Shown: piece after piece, positions 15,473 to 24,551 of the stretch
Layout: the number at the start of each line of letters is the position of its first letter
Numbering within the stretch: the first letter of the stretch is position 1
From: Neopararhizobium haloflavum
Lineage (GTDB): Bacteria; Pseudomonadota; Alphaproteobacteria; Rhizobiales; Rhizobiaceae
NCBI RefSeq assembly: GCF_002750855.1
Contig: NZ_NWUC01000003.1
Span: 186,001-250,000 of the forward strand
Direction of reading: 5' to 3'
DNA: 64,000 bases
The notes under the pieces: generated by a model
Told to the model about the DNA's origin: nothing
The model's database searches: none
Seen by the model: only the letters and a program-made list of their open reading frames with translations
Translations under genes and position numbers: made by a program

Positions 15473-16975
15473 TCAGTTCAACGCCTCGGGCAAAAGGCTG
15501 GCGGGGATGTCCTGATAGCAGACAGGTCGTAGAAACCGCCGGATCGCCAGCGTTCCGACTGATGTGGTCGAGACTTGCGTGGAAGCCGGGTACGGCCCGC
15601 CATGCATCATCGCATCCGCCACCTCGACCCCCGTCGGAAAGCCGTTTGCCAGGAGCCGGCCTGCCTTGCGCTCCAGGATGGGCAGAAGGCGGCGCGCATC
15701 CGCGTGGTCGGCCTCGTCGAGCTGCAGCGTGCAGGTCAACTGCCCTTCGAGCCCTCGGGCGATTTCGAGCATCTGATCGACATCCTTCGCCTTGACCACA
15801 ATGCCGAGCGGACCGAACACTTCGTGGTGGAGGTCGGGCTCGGCCAACCAGGTCTCGCCGCTGGCGACGAAAACCGCCGGCGCGCTGTTGCGGCCGCTGC
15901 TTTCGCCGGCCCACACCGTCTGCGTGCCACCATGCGCGGCGATGCGGTCGAGCCCCTTGCGATAGGCATCGGCGATGCCGTCGCCCAGCATCGTCTGGGC
16001 CGCAACACCTTCCAGCGCCTCGCTGGTCGTGGCGATGAAGGCATCGGCTTCGCCCTCCGGCATCACGACAACGCCGGGATTGGTGCAGAACTGACCGACA
16101 CCCATGGTCAGGGAGCCTGCCCAGGACTTGCCGATCTGGCTGGCACGTGCCTTTGCGGCAGCCGGCAGGACAAAGACGGGGTTCACGCTGCCGAGTTCGC
16201 CGAAGAAGGGGATCGGCTCGGGACGGTTCTGCGCGATGTCATAAAGCGCCCGGCCTCCACCGAGCGATCCGGTGAAACCGATGGCCCTGATCAGTGGATG
16301 GCTGACCAGCGCCTCGCCCAGTGCATTCGTGCTGCCATGGATCAGCGAGAAAACGCCGGGCGGCATGTCTTCCGCCCGTATCGCGGCATCGATCGCCTCT
16401 GCGACATGCTGCGCTGTCCCCGGATGGGCAGGGTGCCCCTTGACGACCACCGGACAGCCCGCAGCAAGAGCCGACGCCGTGTCGCCGCCAGCCGTGGAAA
16501 AGGCGAGCGGAAAGTTCGAGGCTCCGAAGACGCCGACCGGGCCGATGGGCCGCTGCATCAGACGCAGATCCGGACGCGGTGCCGGCTGGCGATCGGGCAG
16601 GGCCTCGTCATGCCGCCGGTCGAGGTAGTCGCCCTTTTCGATGTGGCGCGCGAAAAGCTGGAGCTGTCCCGTGGTGCGGCCACACTCGCCCTCAAGGCGC
16701 GCCTGCGGCAGACCCGACTCGGCCATGGCGGTCTCCACGATCGCGGCCTTGCGCGCGGTGATCTCTTCGGCGATGCGGTTCAGGAAGGAAGCACGTTTGC
16801 TGTCCGGCAGGTATCCATAGGTCCAGAAGGCATCCTCGGCAGCCTTGGCCGCGCGGTCGACCTCTGCCGCGCCACCTTCGGCGAAGGTCCTTGGCTCGCC
16901 CGTTGCCGGGCGCGAGGCGAAGGTCTGCGATCCGGCGACCCACTCGCCGGCGATGAGGTGCTTTCCGTCGGTCAT
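15473..16975 (-). CDS. aldehyde dehydrogenase, probable 2,5-dioxovalerate (alpha-ketoglutarate semialdehyde) dehydrogenase
   Basis: The expected last step of the oxidative hexuronate route: NAD(P)-dependent oxidation of 2-oxoglutarate semialdehyde to 2-oxoglutarate. The 500-residue aldehyde dehydrogenase has FGASNFPLAFS (cofactor-binding region), the catalytic glutamate in FFGELGSVNP (about 260) and the nucleophilic cysteine in GVGQFCTNPG (about C296). This subgroup lacks the common GQxC spelling and matches the KGSA dehydrogenase group. The ATG at 16975 is chosen; an upstream extension would overlap udh. udh ends 5 bp upstream in the same direction. The substrate assignment leans on the neighbours kdgD and udh. 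Confidence 0.88.
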   Translation of the reverse strand: MTDGKHLIAGEWVAGSQTFASRPATGEPRTFAEGGAAEVDRAAKAAEDAFWTYGYLPDSKRASFLNRIAEEITARKAAIVETAMAESGLPQARLEGECGRTTGQLQLFARHIEKGDYLDRRHDEALPDRQPAPRPDLRLMQRPIGPVGVFGASNFPLAFSTAGGDTASALAAGCPVVVKGHPAHPGTAQHVAEAIDAAIRAEDMPPGVFSLIHGSTNALGEALVSHPLIRAIGFTGSLGGGRALYDIAQNRPEPIPFFGELGSVNPVFVLPAAAKARASQIGKSWAGSLTMGVGQFCTNPGVVVMPEGEADAFIATTSEALEGVAAQTMLGDGIADAYRKGLDRIAAHGGTQTVWAGESSGRNSAPAVFVASGETWLAEPDLHHEVFGPLGIVVKAKDVDQMLEIARGLEGQLTCTLQLDEADHADARRLLPILERKAGRLLANGFPTGVEVADAMMHGGPYPASTQVSTTSVGTLAIRRFLRPVCYQDIPASLLPEALN

Positions 16976-16980
16976 GTCAC

Positions 16981-17772
16981 TCAATCCTCGAAATGTCCTT
17001 TGGCGGCAAATCCGCCGCCCTGAAATCTGACGGCTGGGGCGGTGCCTTCGTCCGGCGGATCGCCAGCGAACTTGGCACGGAATTTCTCCGCATTGTCCTT
17101 TGGCCGCCAGCCCAGATAGGCGACCTTGGAATTGTCCCACCAACTCTCGTCATTGTCCGATGCACCATAGATGATCGGACAGCCGAGCCGCGGCGCAGCG
17201 AAGACACGCTCGATCAGCGAAACGAAATCATCCGCGCTGAGCCATGTCGCCAGCATGCGGCGATCCTTCGGCTCGTCGAAACAGCTTCCGATCCTGACGA
17301 TCGCCGTTTCGATGCCGAACTTGTCGTAATAGAGCCGCGCCACCGCCTCGCCAAAACACTTGGATACGCCATAAAGGCTGTCGGGCCGCAGCACCGAATC
17401 CGCATCCAGCCGGGTCTCGCGCTCATGAAACCCGATCGCATGATTGGAACTGGCGAAGACAATGCGGCGGCAGCCGGTCTGGCGCGCGGCTTCATAGACA
17501 TTGTAGAGCCCGCGAATGTTCGCATCGAGAATGACGTCGAACGTGTTCTCGACCGACATGCCGCCAAAATGCACGATGCCGTCACATCCGTCGACGAGAT
17601 CCTTCACGGCAGCGAAATCGGCGAGATCGCACGGCACGACCTCTTCTCCCGACGTCTGGGGCGCCATTTCGGCGACGTCGGACAGGCGGATCGTTTCGGC
17701 CAGATGCGTCAAGCGGCTGCGTGCCATGCGGCCGAGATTTCCGCCGGCGCCTGTTATGAGCAATCGTTTCAT
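16981..17772 (-). CDS. udh: uronate dehydrogenase
   Basis: Oxidises the anomeric carbon of D-galacturonate or D-glucuronate with NAD+ to the aldaro-1,5-lactone. The 263-residue short-chain dehydrogenase has TGAGGNLG at 7-14, the distinctive ASSNHAIGFH around 108-116 and the catalytic YGVSK at 134-138 (Y134, K138). These match the Agrobacterium Udh family closely by eye. ATG at 17772. It sits between the TRAP permease gene (9 bp gap) and the aldehyde dehydrogenase gene (5 bp gap), which supports one uptake-and-oxidation operon read leftward from the dctP promoter. Confidence 0.95.
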   Translation of the reverse strand: MKRLLITGAGGNLGRMARSRLTHLAETIRLSDVAEMAPQTSGEEVVPCDLADFAAVKDLVDGCDGIVHFGGMSVENTFDVILDANIRGLYNVYEAARQTGCRRIVFASSNHAIGFHERETRLDADSVLRPDSLYGVSKCFGEAVARLYYDKFGIETAIVRIGSCFDEPKDRRMLATWLSADDFVSLIERVFAAPRLGCPIIYGASDNDESWWDNSKVAYLGWRPKDNAEKFRAKFAGDPPDEGTAPAVRFQGGGFAAKGHFED

Positions 17773-17781
17773 GTGGCGTCC

Positions 17782-19062
17782 TTACTGCAGCAGGTCGGGT
17801 AGGGTCAAAGAGACGGCGGGGACGTAGGTCGTCAGCATCAATGCGATGAGGATCGCCAGATAGAAAGGCCAGACGGTTTTCAGGACATGCTCGATCTTCA
17901 CCTTGGCGATCGCGCAACCGACGAACAGGCAGCCTCCGACGGGCGGCGTCGTCAATCCGAGCCCGAGATTCATCATCATCACCATGCCGAATTGCACCGG
18001 ATCCATCCCGAATGACGAAACGACAGGCAGGAAGATCGGTGTGCAGATGAGAATGAGCGCCGCCATGTCCATGAACATGCCAAGCACGAGCAGCGCCAGG
18101 TTGATGAGCAGCAGGATGACGATGGGATTTTCCGAGACGCCCGTCAACATGTCCATGATCGAAGCAGGCACTCGATAAAGCGACAGGAAATAGGCGAATG
18201 CCGTCGCCGTGCCCACCAGGGTCATCACCATCGCGGTGGTGCGGATTGCCTGCGTGATGCACTCCCAGAAGGCCGAGAGCGACAAGGAGCGGTAGACGAC
18301 AATGGTGACGAAAAGCGCGTAGATAGCGCCGATCGCTGCCGATTCGGTAACCGTGAAGATGCCCGACAATACCCCGCCGATGATGACGACGGCGGTGAGG
18401 AAGCCCGGCAGTGCGGCTGTCGCGGCAACGACCAACGCCCGCATCCCGGGGAACGGCGAAGCCGGATATCCCCGTTTGACGGCAACGAGATAGGCCGCCA
18501 CCGCAAGGAAGAAGCACATGATCACGCCCGGCACCACCCCGGCCAGGAAAAGCGAGGTGATCGAAATGCCGCCCCCCGCTGCCAGCGCATAGAGGATCAT
18601 GTTGTGGCTGGGCGGGATCATGACGCCTGCGATCGACGACGTGACCGTGACATTGACCGAGTAATCGTCGTCGTAGCCGCGCTCGCGCATCATCGGGATC
18701 ATGACGGAACCGAGTGCCGACGTATCGGCCACCGCCGAGCCGGAAATGCCGCCGAACAGCATCGAGGAAAAGACGTTGACGACGCCGAGGCCGCCGCGCA
18801 CCCGGCCCACCAGCGCTTCGGCGAAGTGGACCAGCCGGATCGCGATGCCGCCGCGCATCATCAATTCGCCCGCGAAGATAAAGAACGGGATCGCAAGGAG
18901 CGAATAGACATTCATCCCAGCGACCATGCGCTGGAACACGATCATGGGCGGCACGCCCTCGTAGAATGCGGCCAAGAGCGCGGCGATCCCCAGGCCGAAG
19001 GCGATAGGCAGGCCGATCACGACGGCAACCGCAAAACTGACGAGAAGGATGGCAAGGCCCAT
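17782..19062 (-). CDS. dctM: TRAP transporter large permease (DctM type)
   Basis: The large membrane subunit of a tripartite ATP-independent periplasmic transporter, driving sodium- or proton-coupled uptake. It has 426 residues with about 12 membrane helices. The conserved features are the early GLPIAFGLGIAALLAA, the GGISGSAVADTSALGSVMIP motif near 100 and the late PPVGGCLFVGC segment. Placement with udh, kdgD and gci, and the type of binding protein, imply hexuronate import. DctQ lies 21 bp upstream. Confidence 0.95.
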   Translation of the reverse strand: MGLAILLVSFAVAVVIGLPIAFGLGIAALLAAFYEGVPPMIVFQRMVAGMNVYSLLAIPFFIFAGELMMRGGIAIRLVHFAEALVGRVRGGLGVVNVFSSMLFGGISGSAVADTSALGSVMIPMMRERGYDDDYSVNVTVTSSIAGVMIPPSHNMILYALAAGGGISITSLFLAGVVPGVIMCFFLAVAAYLVAVKRGYPASPFPGMRALVVAATAALPGFLTAVVIIGGVLSGIFTVTESAAIGAIYALFVTIVVYRSLSLSAFWECITQAIRTTAMVMTLVGTATAFAYFLSLYRVPASIMDMLTGVSENPIVILLLINLALLVLGMFMDMAALILICTPIFLPVVSSFGMDPVQFGMVMMMNLGLGLTTPPVGGCLFVGCAIAKVKIEHVLKTVWPFYLAILIALMLTTYVPAVSLTLPDLLQ

Positions 19063-19083: not shown

Positions 19084-19614
19084 TCAATCCTGACGCGGCG
19101 CGTCGACGGCTTCGTCCAGCAAAGCCTCACCCGGCGTCCTGACCCTGGCGGACGAACCGATCAGCCCGACCAAGCGCTCGATCATGAAGATGAAGATCAG
19201 CACGCCGCAGATGACCAGCGGCAGGTACTGGAAGGATTGGGGTATTCCCAGAAGCGGGATCGAGCGATTCCACGTGGAGGTGACGAGGCTCCACGAGAAA
19301 TACGCCATCGCGGCGCCGAAGGCCGCCAGTATCACCGCATTGACGATCTGCAGGCTCCGTTGAATACGCTTCGGAAGCATTTCGACGATCAGCGAAATGC
19401 CGAGATGAAAATCCTCCCGCAATCCGATGGCCGCAATCGGCAATGAAACGACGAGGATCAGGATCAAGGACAGGCGCTCGGCCCATGTGGGCGTATCGTT
19501 CAAGACATAACGCCCGAAGACCTGCCAGCCTGTCGTCGCGATGATCACGATCAGCGCCAGACCGCCCAAAGCCACGACCGCCGCGGCGAGATGGTTCAAT
19601 GGCTTCCAGTGCAT
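19084..19614 (-). CDS. dctQ: TRAP transporter small permease (DctQ type)
   Basis: The four-helix small membrane subunit of the TRAP transporter, 176 residues. It has the family region RYVLNDTPTWAERLS near 38-52 and a hydrophobic C-terminal helix followed by a charged tail. It is co-transcribed between dctP and dctM, with a strong hairpin in the 67-bp dctP-dctQ gap that may reduce its expression relative to the binding protein. Confidence 0.93.
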   Translation of the reverse strand: MHWKPLNHLAAAVVALGGLALIVIIATTGWQVFGRYVLNDTPTWAERLSLILILVVSLPIAAIGLREDFHLGISLIVEMLPKRIQRSLQIVNAVILAAFGAAMAYFSWSLVTSTWNRSIPLLGIPQSFQYLPLVICGVLIFIFMIERLVGLIGSSARVRTPGEALLDEAVDAPRQD

Positions 19615-19681: not shown

Positions 19682-20665
19682 TTATTCGGTGTTCTGAATG
19701 CGCTCGAGCAGATCGGCAACGACGGGATCGGCGGCGAACTCTTCATAGACCGGCTGCATCGCCTCGATGAACGGTGTCTTGTCCTCGACCTCGATGACCG
19801 TCGTGCCCGCTTCACGTACGATCTTTTCCGATTCCTCGTCGCGTTTGGCCCATTCCTCACGCTGGAAGGCCTGCGATTCCAGAGCGGCTTCGCGCACGAT
19901 TTCCTGATCCTCGGCGCTCAGCCCGTCCCAAACCGGCTTCGAGACGGCGAAAATCTCCGGAACGATCGAGTGCTCGTCGAGGATGTAATAGGGCGCCACG
20001 CTGTAATGGTTGGTGTATTCATAGGACGGCCAATTGTTCTCGGCGCCTTCGACCACACCCGACTGGATCGCGGAATACAGCTCTCCAAAGGGGATCGGCG
20101 TTGCGTTGGCGCCGAGCGCCTCGACGAGGGCGACGAACATGTCGGAGGACTGTACGCGGATCTTCAGACCCTCGAAATCATCGATCGTCTCCAACGGAAC
20201 GCTGGCATAGAATGAGCGCGCGCCGCTGTCGTACCAGGCCAGCGCCACCATGCCCGCCTCTTCCATCGCGGCGCCGATCTCCTGGCCGATCTCGCCGTCC
20301 ATGACGGTATGCATGTGATCGAGCGACCGGAACGCATAGGGCAGCGTCGTGGCCTGGGAGGCTGGGACTATGTTGTTGAGCGGAACCATGTTGAACACGG
20401 CGAAGTCGATGCCGCCGAACTGCATCTGCTCGATGGCGAAGTCCTGCTCGCCGAGTTCGGCATTGTGGAAGACGTCGGCCGTGATGCGCCCCTCGGTCCG
20501 CTCCTCCACCAGCTCGGCAAAGCGCTCCATCGCGGTGGACACCGGATAGTCGGGCGCATGCTGGTTCCAGCCGCGCAATTCCTGCGCGCCCGCGGACGCC
20601 ATGAAGGTCAGGGTGGTTCCGGCCAGCAGAGCGGCGATCGACAGCTTGTTCGTGAAATGGGACAT
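19682..20665 (-). CDS. dctP: TRAP transporter solute-binding protein (DctP type), probable hexuronate-binding
   Basis: A periplasmic binding protein of 327 residues with a signal peptide: K7, a hydrophobic core at 8-24, and a likely cleavage after AGA at 25-27. DctP-family features include the carboxylate-binding arginine in LKIRVQSS (about 148) and GELYSAIQSGVVEGAENN. That last segment, followed by WPSYEYTNHYSV, is typical of binding proteins I associate with sugar acids. The ATG at 20665 follows GGGAGGAGCCACCG. It is the first gene of the leftward operon dctP-dctQ-dctM-udh-aldehyde dehydrogenase. Confidence 0.92.
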   Translation of the reverse strand: MSHFTNKLSIAALLAGTTLTFMASAGAQELRGWNQHAPDYPVSTAMERFAELVEERTEGRITADVFHNAELGEQDFAIEQMQFGGIDFAVFNMVPLNNIVPASQATTLPYAFRSLDHMHTVMDGEIGQEIGAAMEEAGMVALAWYDSGARSFYASVPLETIDDFEGLKIRVQSSDMFVALVEALGANATPIPFGELYSAIQSGVVEGAENNWPSYEYTNHYSVAPYYILDEHSIVPEIFAVSKPVWDGLSAEDQEIVREAALESQAFQREEWAKRDEESEKIVREAGTTVIEVEDKTPFIEAMQPVYEEFAADPVVADLLERIQNTE

Positions 20666-20736: not shown

Positions 20737-20765
20737 TTTCTAGATGTCATAGTATGACTTGTCAA
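20737..20765 (-). promoter_or_regulatory. dctP promoter with embedded GntR operator
   Basis: On the minus strand a -35 TTGACA (20760-20765) is followed by a 17-bp spacer and a -10 TAGAAA (20737-20742). The spacer contains the perfect odd palindrome GTCATAGTATGAC (20746-20758). The same 13-mer, on the other strand, lies in the kdgD promoter. Occupancy between -35 and -10 would block transcription of the leftward uronate operon, consistent with the adjacent FadR-type regulator being a repressor. Confidence 0.8.
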
Positions 20766-20838
20766 CGAGACATCTTACCGGCTTGCCTTTACCCGCGCCG
20801 TCGCCCAGAATGCCGGAACGACAAGGAAGAGGATTTTC

Positions 20839-21594
20839 ATGGCGGCCCCGCAACAGGACAAGCCCCGGATCAGCCTGACGGCGACACTGGTGCGCCGGCT
20901 GCGCGATGATATCGAAAGCGGCCGATACGCCGCCGGGGAAAAGCTGCCGACCGAGCCCGAGATGATCCGCCAGCACGGCGTCAGCCGCACGGTGGTGCGC
21001 GAGGCGATCGCTGCGCTGCGCGCCGACGGCCTGGTGGAATCGCGCCACGGGGTCGGCGTCTTCGTGCTTCAGGCGCAACCGGCGCCATCCGGACTCGACC
21101 TCCTCACACAGGTCAGCGACAAGATTTCCGACATCATCGAGGAACTGGAACTGCGGGCTGGCGTCGAGATCGAGGCGGCGGGCCTTGCAGCGCAGCGGTC
21201 CTCGCCCGCGCAGGAGGCCGAAATTCAGGCCTGCGTCGATGCATTTGCCGCAGACATGGAGGCCGGGCGCGCCACGGACGAAGCCGATTTCGCCTTCCAC
21301 ATGGCAGTCGCCCGCGCGACCAACAATGCCCGCTTCGAGGCCTTTCTCGCCCACCTTGGGCGCCGCACCATTCCACGGGTGAAGTTTCGCAGCGCGCTCG
21401 GCGGCGTCGACCCCCTCCCCAATCGGGACCATGAACTCAACGCCGAGCACGCGCGCGTCGCCGACGCCATATTCGCGCGCGATGCAGAGGCTGCACGCGA
21501 CGCAATGCGCCAGCATCTTGTCGGCGGAATGGAGCGCTACAGGGCCATCACACGCTCCCCGCGCGCAGCCCGCGCAAAGCCAGGCGACAGTTGA
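20839..21594 (+). CDS. GntR-family transcriptional regulator, FadR/FCD subfamily (uronate operon regulator)
   Basis: A 251-residue regulator with an N-terminal winged helix (PTEPEMIRQHGVSRTVVREAIAALRADGLVESR is the recognition region, about 36-70). The C-terminal FCD ligand domain has the metal-binding aspartate/histidines in DFAFHMA and the later H-rich helix (EHARVADAIFARD, then MRQHLVGG). ATG at 20839 after AGGAAGAGG. It sits between the two uronate operons, each with the same 13-bp palindrome in its promoter, so it very probably represses both and is released by a uronate or a pathway intermediate. The effector is unknown. Confidence 0.93.
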   Translation: MAAPQQDKPRISLTATLVRRLRDDIESGRYAAGEKLPTEPEMIRQHGVSRTVVREAIAALRADGLVESRHGVGVFVLQAQPAPSGLDLLTQVSDKISDIIEELELRAGVEIEAAGLAAQRSSPAQEAEIQACVDAFAADMEAGRATDEADFAFHMAVARATNNARFEAFLAHLGRRTIPRVKFRSALGGVDPLPNRDHELNAEHARVADAIFARDAEAARDAMRQHLVGGMERYRAITRSPRAARAKPGDS

Positions 21595-21619
21595 CGTCAT
21601 TTCATAGTCATACTATGAC
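21591..21619 (+). promoter_or_regulatory. kdgD promoter with overlapping GntR operator
   Basis: A -35 TTGACG (21591-21596, overlapping the gntR stop codon) and a -10 TATGAC (21614-21619) are 17 bp apart. The palindrome GTCATACTATGAC (21607-21619) covers the -10 element and is the reverse complement of the 13-mer in the dctP promoter. Both copies are followed by TTG on the plus strand. The geometry suits repression of kdgD-gci-gli by the GntR protein. Confidence 0.78.
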
Positions 21620-21649
21620 TTGATCATCATACGAATATATGTGGATTGA

Positions 21650-23699
<2,050 letters not shown>

Positions 23700-23703
<4 letters not shown>

Positions 23704-24551
23704 AGCGCCCCTTCACAGGCAAGAAGCCTCGGTGCCCGCTGCCGCCCGGCACGGTGGACACGCAGATGCATCTTTACCCACCGGGCTTTGACGCCGTACC
23801 GGGCGGCCCTGCCCTGCCGCCGAACCCACCATCGGTGCCAGCGTACCGATCGGTGATGCAATGGCTCGGAATCGAGCGTGTCGTCGTCACCCAGGCCAAC
23901 GCGCACCAGGCAGACAATGCCGCGCTCATCCACTGCCTCGGCGAACTCGGCGATATCGCACGCGGCGTGGCGGTCATCGAGCCCGGCGCAACACGCGAAC
24001 ACATTGCGCATCTCGACGCGGTGGGCGTGCGCGGGGCGCGCATCATGGACCTGCCGGGCGGCGCTGTCGGGCTCAGTTGCCTGCGGGACGTCGAACCGCT
24101 GATCCGCGATTTCGACTGGGTCATTGCCGTCCAGTTCGACGGCATGCACATTGCGGATCACGTCGCGACACTGGAAACGATCGAGGGCGACTACATCATC
24201 GATCACCACGGCAAGTTCTTCGGCAACGTTGGTCCCGACGATCCGCGCATCGACACGCTCAAGCGTTTGATGGATCGCGGCAATTGCTATTTCAAGCTGG
24301 CGGGGTGCTATGAATCCTCGCAGAGCGGCCCGCCCGACTATGCCGATGTCGCGGCCGTGGCGCGGGCAATCCTCGCGCACGCACCGGACAGGGTCGTCTG
24401 GGGCACGAACTGGCCGCACGTCCTGATGCGCGAGGAGGCGGACTATCCGGACGACGCCGCGCTGTGCGATCTCGTCACGGGCTGGATTCCCGAAGCGGTG
24501 AGACGAAAGGTGCTGGTGGAGACACCCGCCAGGCTTTTCGACTTTACCTGA
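23700..24551 (+). CDS. gli: amidohydrolase-family D-galactarolactone isomerase
   Basis: Probably interconverts galactaro-1,5- and 1,4-lactones, linking Udh (1,5-lactone product) to Gci (1,4-lactone substrate). The 283-residue amidohydrolase-2 type TIM barrel has the N-terminal metal-type motif D20-T-Q-M-H24, a central DHHGKFFG with histidines, and WGTNWPH near the C-terminus. The ATG at 23700 overlaps the gci stop; a longer open frame upstream lies inside gci and is not used. The specific activity is inferred from neighbours. A generic lactone hydrolase is possible. Confidence 0.85.

Follow-up and report, generated by a model that had tools for sequence, protein, structure and literature searches.

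Two copies of a 13-bp palindrome flank a GntR-family regulator gene, gntR, in a 64,000-nucleotide stretch of the Neopararhizobium haloflavum genome (hereafter the window), and they are very likely the operators of the protein encoded between them. From the sequence we infer, with a probability of about 0.85, that this GntR-FCD protein binds both palindromes, silences a transporter operon and a catabolic operon for hexuronates together, restrains its own gene, and is released from the DNA by an acid. The same site accompanies orthologues of the regulator in alpha- and betaproteobacteria, and it departs from the operator consensus of the FadR subfamily in a way that matches a change in the protein.

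A regulator gene between two hexuronate operons

The features on which the analysis turns are the following, with coordinates given in window positions.

15473-17143, minus strand: aldehyde dehydrogenase ORF (PF00171), true start probably near 16975
16981-17772, minus strand: udh, uronate dehydrogenase (PDB 3rft, uronate dehydrogenase, E 1.5e-101)
17782-19062, minus strand: dctM (PF06808)
19084-19614, minus strand: dctQ (PF04290)
19682-20665, minus strand: dctP, TRAP solute-binding protein (PF03480; PDB matches 4x8r, 4pf8 and 4n8y)
20737-20765, minus strand: putative dctP promoter, TTGACA-N17-TAGAAA, -35 at 20765-20760 and -10 at 20742-20737, called by inspection
20746-20758, minus strand: putative operator 1, GTCATACTATGAC toward dctP, between the dctP -35 and -10 and 80 bp before the gntR start
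20839-21594, plus strand: gntR, GntR helix-turn-helix (HTH) and FCD regulator of 251 aa (PF00392, PF07729)
21591-21619, plus strand: putative kdgD promoter, TTGACG-N17-TATGAC, -35 at 21591-21596 and -10 at 21614-21619, called by inspection and by a layout conserved in relatives of the regulator
21607-21619, plus strand: putative operator 2, GTCATACTATGAC, lying over the -10 of the kdgD promoter
21623-21635, plus strand: weak possible second operator, ATCATCATACGAA, 9.4 bits, 16 bp from operator 2
21656-22561, plus strand: kdgD, 5-dehydro-4-deoxyglucarate dehydratase (TIGR03249, 394.9 bits; cut-off 373.95)
22558-23703, plus strand: gci-like galactarolactone cycloisomerase, enolase superfamily (best PDB match 4ggb, E 9.7e-144)
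23700-24551, plus strand: gli-like galactaro-delta-lactone isomerase, amidohydrolase (best PDB match 4mup, E 7.5e-94)

PDB entry 4ggb is a galactarolactone cycloisomerase and 4mup a galactaro-delta-lactone isomerase. Udh, Gli, Gci and KdgD are identified by strong matches, and the fifth enzyme gene matched as an aldehyde dehydrogenase alone, with no NCBIfam cut-off reached among the 25 families listed out of 40; from its pathway context it is probably 2-oxoglutarate semialdehyde dehydrogenase. The accessible text of PMC6353982 gives the oxidative hexuronate pathway as Udh, Gli, Gci, KdgD and 2-oxoglutarate semialdehyde dehydrogenase, and by comparison with this account the two operons together appear to encode that pathway plus a TRAP transporter. 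In three genomes of the same genus we found no match to the regulator at E 1e-30 and none to gci at E 1e-100, so the cluster looks accessory.

The initial annotation had placed a GntR regulator gene between the palindromes, and a GntR-FCD protein is indeed encoded there, with 73 bits to PF00392 (cut-off 27) and 80.9 bits to PF07729 (cut-off 24.3). Its best PDB match was 9jpj, a pyruvate dehydrogenase complex repressor (E 3.5e-23), and its NCBIfam matches to FadR-subfamily regulators fell below the cut-off. The predicted model (mean pLDDT 82.2, with the start of the first helix weak) contains seven C-terminal helices (85-120, 123-141, 147-159, 164-173, 179-186, 197-212 and 216-239). By this predicted count the protein belongs to the FadR group within the FCD class, the VanR group having six such helices according to the portion of PMC7797058 available.

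Two identical palindromes in promoters of different geometry

The palindrome GTCATAGTATGAC had been reported at 20746-20758 and its reverse complement at 21607-21619, and both positions are correct; the two sites lie 861 bp apart. In each copy, a single centre base separates the six-base arms of an inverted repeat (GTCATA/TATGAC), and when the copies are read in the direction of their own operons, 14 bases are identical (AGTCATACTATGAC). A search that allowed up to two mismatches returned four strand matches in the window, all of them at the two sites, compared with a mean of 0.28 in 100 shuffles. When the promoter spacers were shuffled 3,000 times, the longest common word was at most 12 bases and no shuffle reached 13 or more, while the real spacers share 14.

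Across the organism's own genome (4,171,940 bases), GTCATANTATGAC occurs at these two places only. With the three central bases left free (GTCATNNNATGAC), two further places appear, the first where two ORFs overlap and the second within an ORF. The shorter pattern RTCATNNNATGAY occurs at eight places, two of which are the window sites; by ORF calls, five of the other six fall within likely coding sequence or at its edge, and the sixth (L154) lies in a stretch of poor coding quality. We considered a wider regulon in this genome and rejected it, adding none of the six further places. The genome scan for more copies of the 13-mer that the initial annotation had proposed therefore gave no convincing further site in this genome.

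As had been claimed, the palindrome can be read from the sequence within the 17-bp spacer between TTGACA and TAGAAA in the dctP promoter, and over the -10 of TTGACG-N17-TATGAC in the kdgD promoter. A strict sigma-70 scan missed both promoters, since their -10 hexamers lack the final T that it requires, and reported one other, unrelated match; the promoter calls are consequently based on inspection and, for kdgD, also on conservation. The kdgD -35 hexamer (21591-21596) overlaps the gntR stop codon. Directly before operator 2 there is an extra TCATA half-site, so that window positions 21602-21619 form an overlapping inverted repeat, TCATAGT-CAT-ACTATGA.

The site accompanies the regulator

We surveyed one genome per species, 84,980 species in all, with short peptide patterns of the regulator and obtained 73 loci, whose genera include Sinorhizobium, Rhizobium, Phyllobacterium, Mesorhizobium, Aurantimonas and Aureimonas; Jiella, Devosia, Skermanella and several Alcaligenaceae are also represented. 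Fifty of these loci, 58-69% identical to the window regulator, were treated as close relatives, and the other 23 were excluded from motif counts, although L085-L087 were retained for the trees and counted with the 34 related regulators described below. A GTCAT-N3-ATGAC site with 9 or 10 of its 10 arm bases was present just downstream of gntR in 43 of the 50 relatives, compared with 8 of 1,416 random places, and upstream of gntR in 22 of the 50, compared with 8 of 1,390 random places. Seven relatives had no good downstream site (one of them, L082, at a contig end) and 28 had no good upstream site. The kdgD gene follows gntR in 45 of the 50. No homologue of dctP, udh, gci or gli above 40% identity was found near the relatives' gntR, in a stretch of up to 5 kb on each side. 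The relatives' sites keep their arms and their promoter spacing and vary in the centre. The site thus stands beside orthologues of the window GntR in alpha- and betaproteobacteria, in varied surroundings and on both contigs and plasmids, and it is because of this association that we consider the palindromes at both operons very likely to be operators of the encoded GntR-FCD protein, as the initial annotation had supposed.

We identified the gene upstream of gntR in seven relatives that have a good site there. Three of these genes are divergent from gntR (siderophore synthesis, a phosphoesterase and a KAP/Schlafen-domain protein), and four are transcribed toward it (a chemotaxis protein, an argininosuccinate lyase-like protein, a short-chain dehydrogenase and an amino-acid transporter). 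In the latter four, the upstream site can hardly serve anything except gntR, which gave rise to the idea of autoregulation.

Downstream of kdgD, parts of a peptide-family ABC transporter follow in L041, L157 and L158, and in L043 and L077 the ORFs that come after kdgD lie on the opposite strand. In a plasmid collection, 71 records match GntR with an E value of 1e-60 or better, and 64 of these plasmids are predicted to be conjugative. One of the plasmid loci, L158 (Hartmannibacter diazotrophicus plasmid HDIAp1, typed as conjugative), carries a gntR-kdgD-ABC transporter unit with a divergent aldehyde dehydrogenase gene, and an IS3 transposase lies a few genes from this unit. In whole-genome searches reaching beyond the family, a near copy of the regulator (E 1e-68 or better) was present in just one of 385 genomes of the class, the organism's own, and in four of 397 genomes of the order, its own included. 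L063 (Brucella endophytica) and L152 have two divergent, adjacent gntR copies of this group, about 60% and 65% identical to that of the window; kdgD was not found beside these paired copies within the stretch examined.

The layout of the kdgD promoter is conserved along with the site. A downstream site matching at least 8 of 10 arm bases is present in 47 relatives. Of these, 39 have TTGAC 17 or 18 bp before site position 8, which puts the -10 under the site, and in 36 the -10 is TATGA, the same as in the window. In 34 of the 47 (within L035-L084), the best second site above 4 bits downstream of gntR lies 20-24 bp away on one side of the primary site; a second site at any position within 60 bp was seen at 3.2% of 1,020 random places. 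The second operator of the relatives is the weaker one and stands about two helical turns from the primary site. In the window, the candidate at 16 bp reaches only 9.4 bits and is off the usual 20-24 bp phase. Lacking the phased second site, the window would depend on one strong site per promoter, whereas most relatives would depend on a tandem pair.

Related uronate clusters carry a different operator

Outside the window, gci was found at 46 places, of which 35 were taken for comparison together with two further GntR loci. The regulators of these related uronate clusters are about 44-57% identical to the window GntR, and several of the clusters share the window's gene order. Their operator, recognized by eye, is AACTTRT-N3-AYAAGTT just upstream of the kdgD -35, and a strict core stands at -15 or -16 in the kdgD promoters of 20 of 36 related clusters. 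The GTCAT-type site is absent at the same gene pair with these regulators. When gapped palindromes were sought blindly in the related clusters, arms of four bases yielded mostly GC words, and arms of five gave one AT-rich hint (AACTT-N7, in 7 of 36 loci); the motif emerged from reading the promoters.

We scored sites on matrices of both groups, leaving one locus out at a time. Operator 1 scored 22.4 bits on the matrix of the relatives vs. 7.6 on that of the related uronate regulators, and operator 2 scored 22.6 vs. 8.3. All 69 own-group sites preferred their own matrix, but because they had been chosen by the motif, the relatives' scores are partly circular and serve as a consistency check rather than a test. 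The sites of the other group, which were picked by position with the better palindrome of two offsets taken, preferred their own matrix in 34 of 36 cases, and two of the 36 preferred the wrong one. The dctP site of L127, one of the two closest transporter relatives, scored about alike on the two matrices (10.3 and 11.2 bits), and its core, TTATCATATGA, differs by one base from TCAT-N3-ATGA, suggesting that an operator change would be cheap.

The dctP promoter of the window resembles those of some related clusters in layout. Its operator core is offset by 8 bases from the start of the -35. The same offset occurs in the dctP promoters of L108, L121, L123 and L127, the four of ten related clusters with a divergent dctP that have the strict core at +8. 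L110 has the core at +8 with one mismatch, the remaining five divergent dctP promoters lack it, and it was found at none of ten dctP genes placed elsewhere in related clusters. At the 22 good upstream sites of the regulator's close relatives, TTGAC never stands 10-25 bp before position 8, whichever strand is read, and the dctP register (TTGAC with the core at +8) is likewise absent; the window alone possesses it. The two site geometries that had been pointed out therefore both find parallels, that of kdgD among the regulator's relatives and that of dctP in four of ten divergent dctP promoters of related uronate clusters.

Protein and operator depart together from the FadR-subfamily code

HTH position 28 is taken here to be the R of the common LPSER motif. 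At this position, so placed, the window protein reads LPTEP and thus has Pro in place of Arg. The 50 relatives have Pro (43), Gln (6) or Ser (1), and the 34 related regulators have Ala (30), Ser (3) or Pro (1), their operators having G or A at the corresponding base. In the available part of PMC4494728, the FadR-subfamily consensus is given as TKGT-N3-ACMA, and Arg at position 28 is described as preferring G/C, with A/T avoided. The core in the window and its relatives, TCAT-N3-ATGA, keeps the spacing of three bases but carries A/T where the consensus has the G that is correlated with Arg 28. Pro or Gln at position 28 is in line with A replacing the consensus G, and because protein and DNA leave the consensus together, the GntR protein gains support as the reader of the site. 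The loss of Arg 28 is not special to the window group, since the related regulators mostly have Ala. The description of the regulator as FadR-type in the initial annotation suits the protein, with its GntR HTH, FCD domain and seven predicted C-terminal helices, but does not extend to the operator.

A proposed mechanism and its alternatives

In the mechanism that we propose, a GntR dimer would bind each palindrome, covering the -10 at kdgD and filling the gap between -35 and -10 at dctP, and RNA polymerase would be kept off both promoters. Without substrate, dctPQM, udh, the aldehyde dehydrogenase gene, kdgD, gci and gli would be repressed together. Operator 1 would probably check gntR itself as well, since it lies only 80 bp before the gene. 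Upon entry of a uronate, an acid of the pathway would bind the FCD domain and free both operons. The most likely effector would be 5-dehydro-4-deoxyglucarate, on which KdgD acts, since among the catabolic genes kdgD alone is common to the window and nearly all relatives.

It is unlikely that the palindromes belong to another transcription factor, such as a paralogous GntR, and surround gntR by coincidence. Paralogues are common, as 149 of 298 genomes of the family match the regulator at E 1e-30 or better, many of them several times; however, the site is found beside orthologues of this GntR in varied surroundings on contigs and plasmids, it is missing from the same gene pair where the regulator is a related one, and no third convincing site was found in the organism's own genome. 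We give slightly less credence still to the idea that the operators are those of GntR but are used otherwise, with the regulator activating one of the promoters or with bound dimers looping across gntR. Looping has been proposed for Atu1419, a tetrameric FCD protein, between palindromes 190 bp apart (PMC7797058, in the portion available), a distance beside which we note the 861 bp of the window. The helical phase between upstream and downstream sites was not significant over 18 distinct distances (Rayleigh p about 0.11-0.21), which speaks against a loop. As for activation, sites on the -10 or between the -35 and -10 are positions of repression, and it is these positions that both window sites occupy.

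Repression by GntR from DNA operators also has to be weighed against explanations in which no such operator exists. For the dctP copy a hairpin of 5 bp is possible, and folding predicts a 7-bp stem around operator 2, as might be expected if the elements worked as RNA hairpins (terminator, attenuator or processing site). We rejected such an RNA element as very improbable, given that folding does not stand out from that of shuffles (z 0.14 and -0.67), that no terminator-like site was found, and that in 39 of 47 relatives the spacing between the kdgD copy and TTGAC is preserved. Sites of recombination or mobility flanking gntR, which the inverted arrangement of the copies about one gene and the presence of close gntR homologues on plasmids (64 of the 71 records being predicted conjugative, and one homologue lying near the IS3 transposase) could bring to mind, seem more improbable again, for we identified no recombinase among the genes between and beside the copies, and the relatives keep the arms and the promoter spacing while varying the centre. 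A chance repeat without function has a negligible probability: the conserved arms are just five bases long, but no spacer shuffle in 3,000 produced 13 common bases and the site is conserved in relatives.

Descent of the cluster

We built trees from segments covering at least 75% of the query; later trees were made without L086 and thinned to 35 rows for KdgD, without L087 and L070 for Gci, and without L139 and L141 for Udh. For the regulator, the window sequence groups with the 50 relatives (100/99). KdgD groups with the relatives against the other group in the full tree (89/83) and in the thinned tree (100/100), but the opposite grouping, window and other group against the relatives, also reaches 71/71, so the window KdgD lies near the split of the two lineages. 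DctP groups with L123 and L127 (100/99), and so does DctM in a quick tree (96 SH-aLRT). In the Gci tree the window sequence branches outside all 35 other clusters (96/94), and the window Gli falls outside 25 of 27 clusters. Forced grouping with L123 and L127 was rejected for Udh (p-AU 2.9e-8) and for Gli (p-AU 0.0053) and was not rejected for Gci (p-AU 0.144).

Judged by these comparisons, the cluster is a mosaic, with the regulator and the kdgD promoter layout of one lineage and a dctP promoter layout known from some clusters of a related one. The dctP promoter combines this layout with an operator sequence that goes with the window regulator. That a plasmid gntR-kdgD cassette was simply dropped into a standard cluster is weakened by the outlying positions of Gci and Gli, just DctP and DctM grouping with L123 and L127. 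The results are compatible with two histories. In one, a standard cluster had its regulator swapped; in the other, an old cluster had this regulator throughout and later received its transporter operon from a source like L123 or L127. Either way, the operator that accompanies the window regulator now stands in a dctP promoter of the other layout. Tentatively, and at somewhat short of even odds, we propose that the cluster changed its regulator and that its dctP promoter, laid out like those of related clusters, was re-matched in register by acquiring a perfect site for a different GntR protein, that the kdgD promoter has the layout proper to the new regulator, and that this regulator reads a palindrome lacking the G typical of the family's operators, with Pro in place of the usual contacting Arg.

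Comparison with known systems

Bouvier et al. are said to have dealt with the GguR regulon of oxidative hexuronate and aldarate catabolism in J Bacteriol. According to the accessible part of PMC5507952, GguR is a GntR-family regulator of Udh, Gli, Gci and a TRAP hexuronate transporter; the window operons carry the same gene set, a likeness of gene content, but GguR is described there in Halomonas, while the window comes from a member of the Rhizobiaceae. Atu1419 of Agrobacterium fabrum, a GntR-FCD repressor of the VanR group, has identical short palindromes that lie over the -10 of some genes and between the -10 and -35 of another; its palindrome, ATGTATACAT, differs in having an essential G, and it serves another pathway and another effector (PMC7797058, as far as the text was available). 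As Atu1419 shows, one FCD GntR repressor can own both site geometries in one regulon.

FadR-subfamily regulators such as PdhR, LldR, ExuR and GlcC share with the window system a GntR HTH joined to an FCD domain, a three-base gap between half-sites, divergons in which each operon has its site, and extra half-sites; they differ in their consensus (TKGT-N3-ACMA vs. TCAT-N3-ATGA) and in the Arg that is common where the window has Pro (PMC4494728, available sections). The same sections describe BioR as a FadR-subfamily member whose operator also lacks the consensus G, but its consensus, TTATMKATAA, is different in both sequence and half-site spacing. In the open-access papers searched, a minority of the literature, we found neither the letters of the palindrome nor a regulator described for this alphaproteobacterial group, and nothing relevant on the Sinorhizobium meliloti pSymA homologue.

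A regulator over paired operators is ordinary control, and systems of this kind are already known. Here, however, the operator departs from the usual sequence of its family and, judging from the promoters compared, it looks as if one of the two has been re-matched to a different regulator. A GntR-FCD group of rhizobia, Skermanella, Aurantimonadaceae and Alcaligenaceae, many copies of which are on plasmids, gains a probable operator and regulon from the analysis. The analysis also offers a testable pair, protein position 28 and the operator G/A, for specificity change among FadR-subfamily regulators, and a possible natural case in which a promoter layout was kept while the operator moved between the codes of two regulators.
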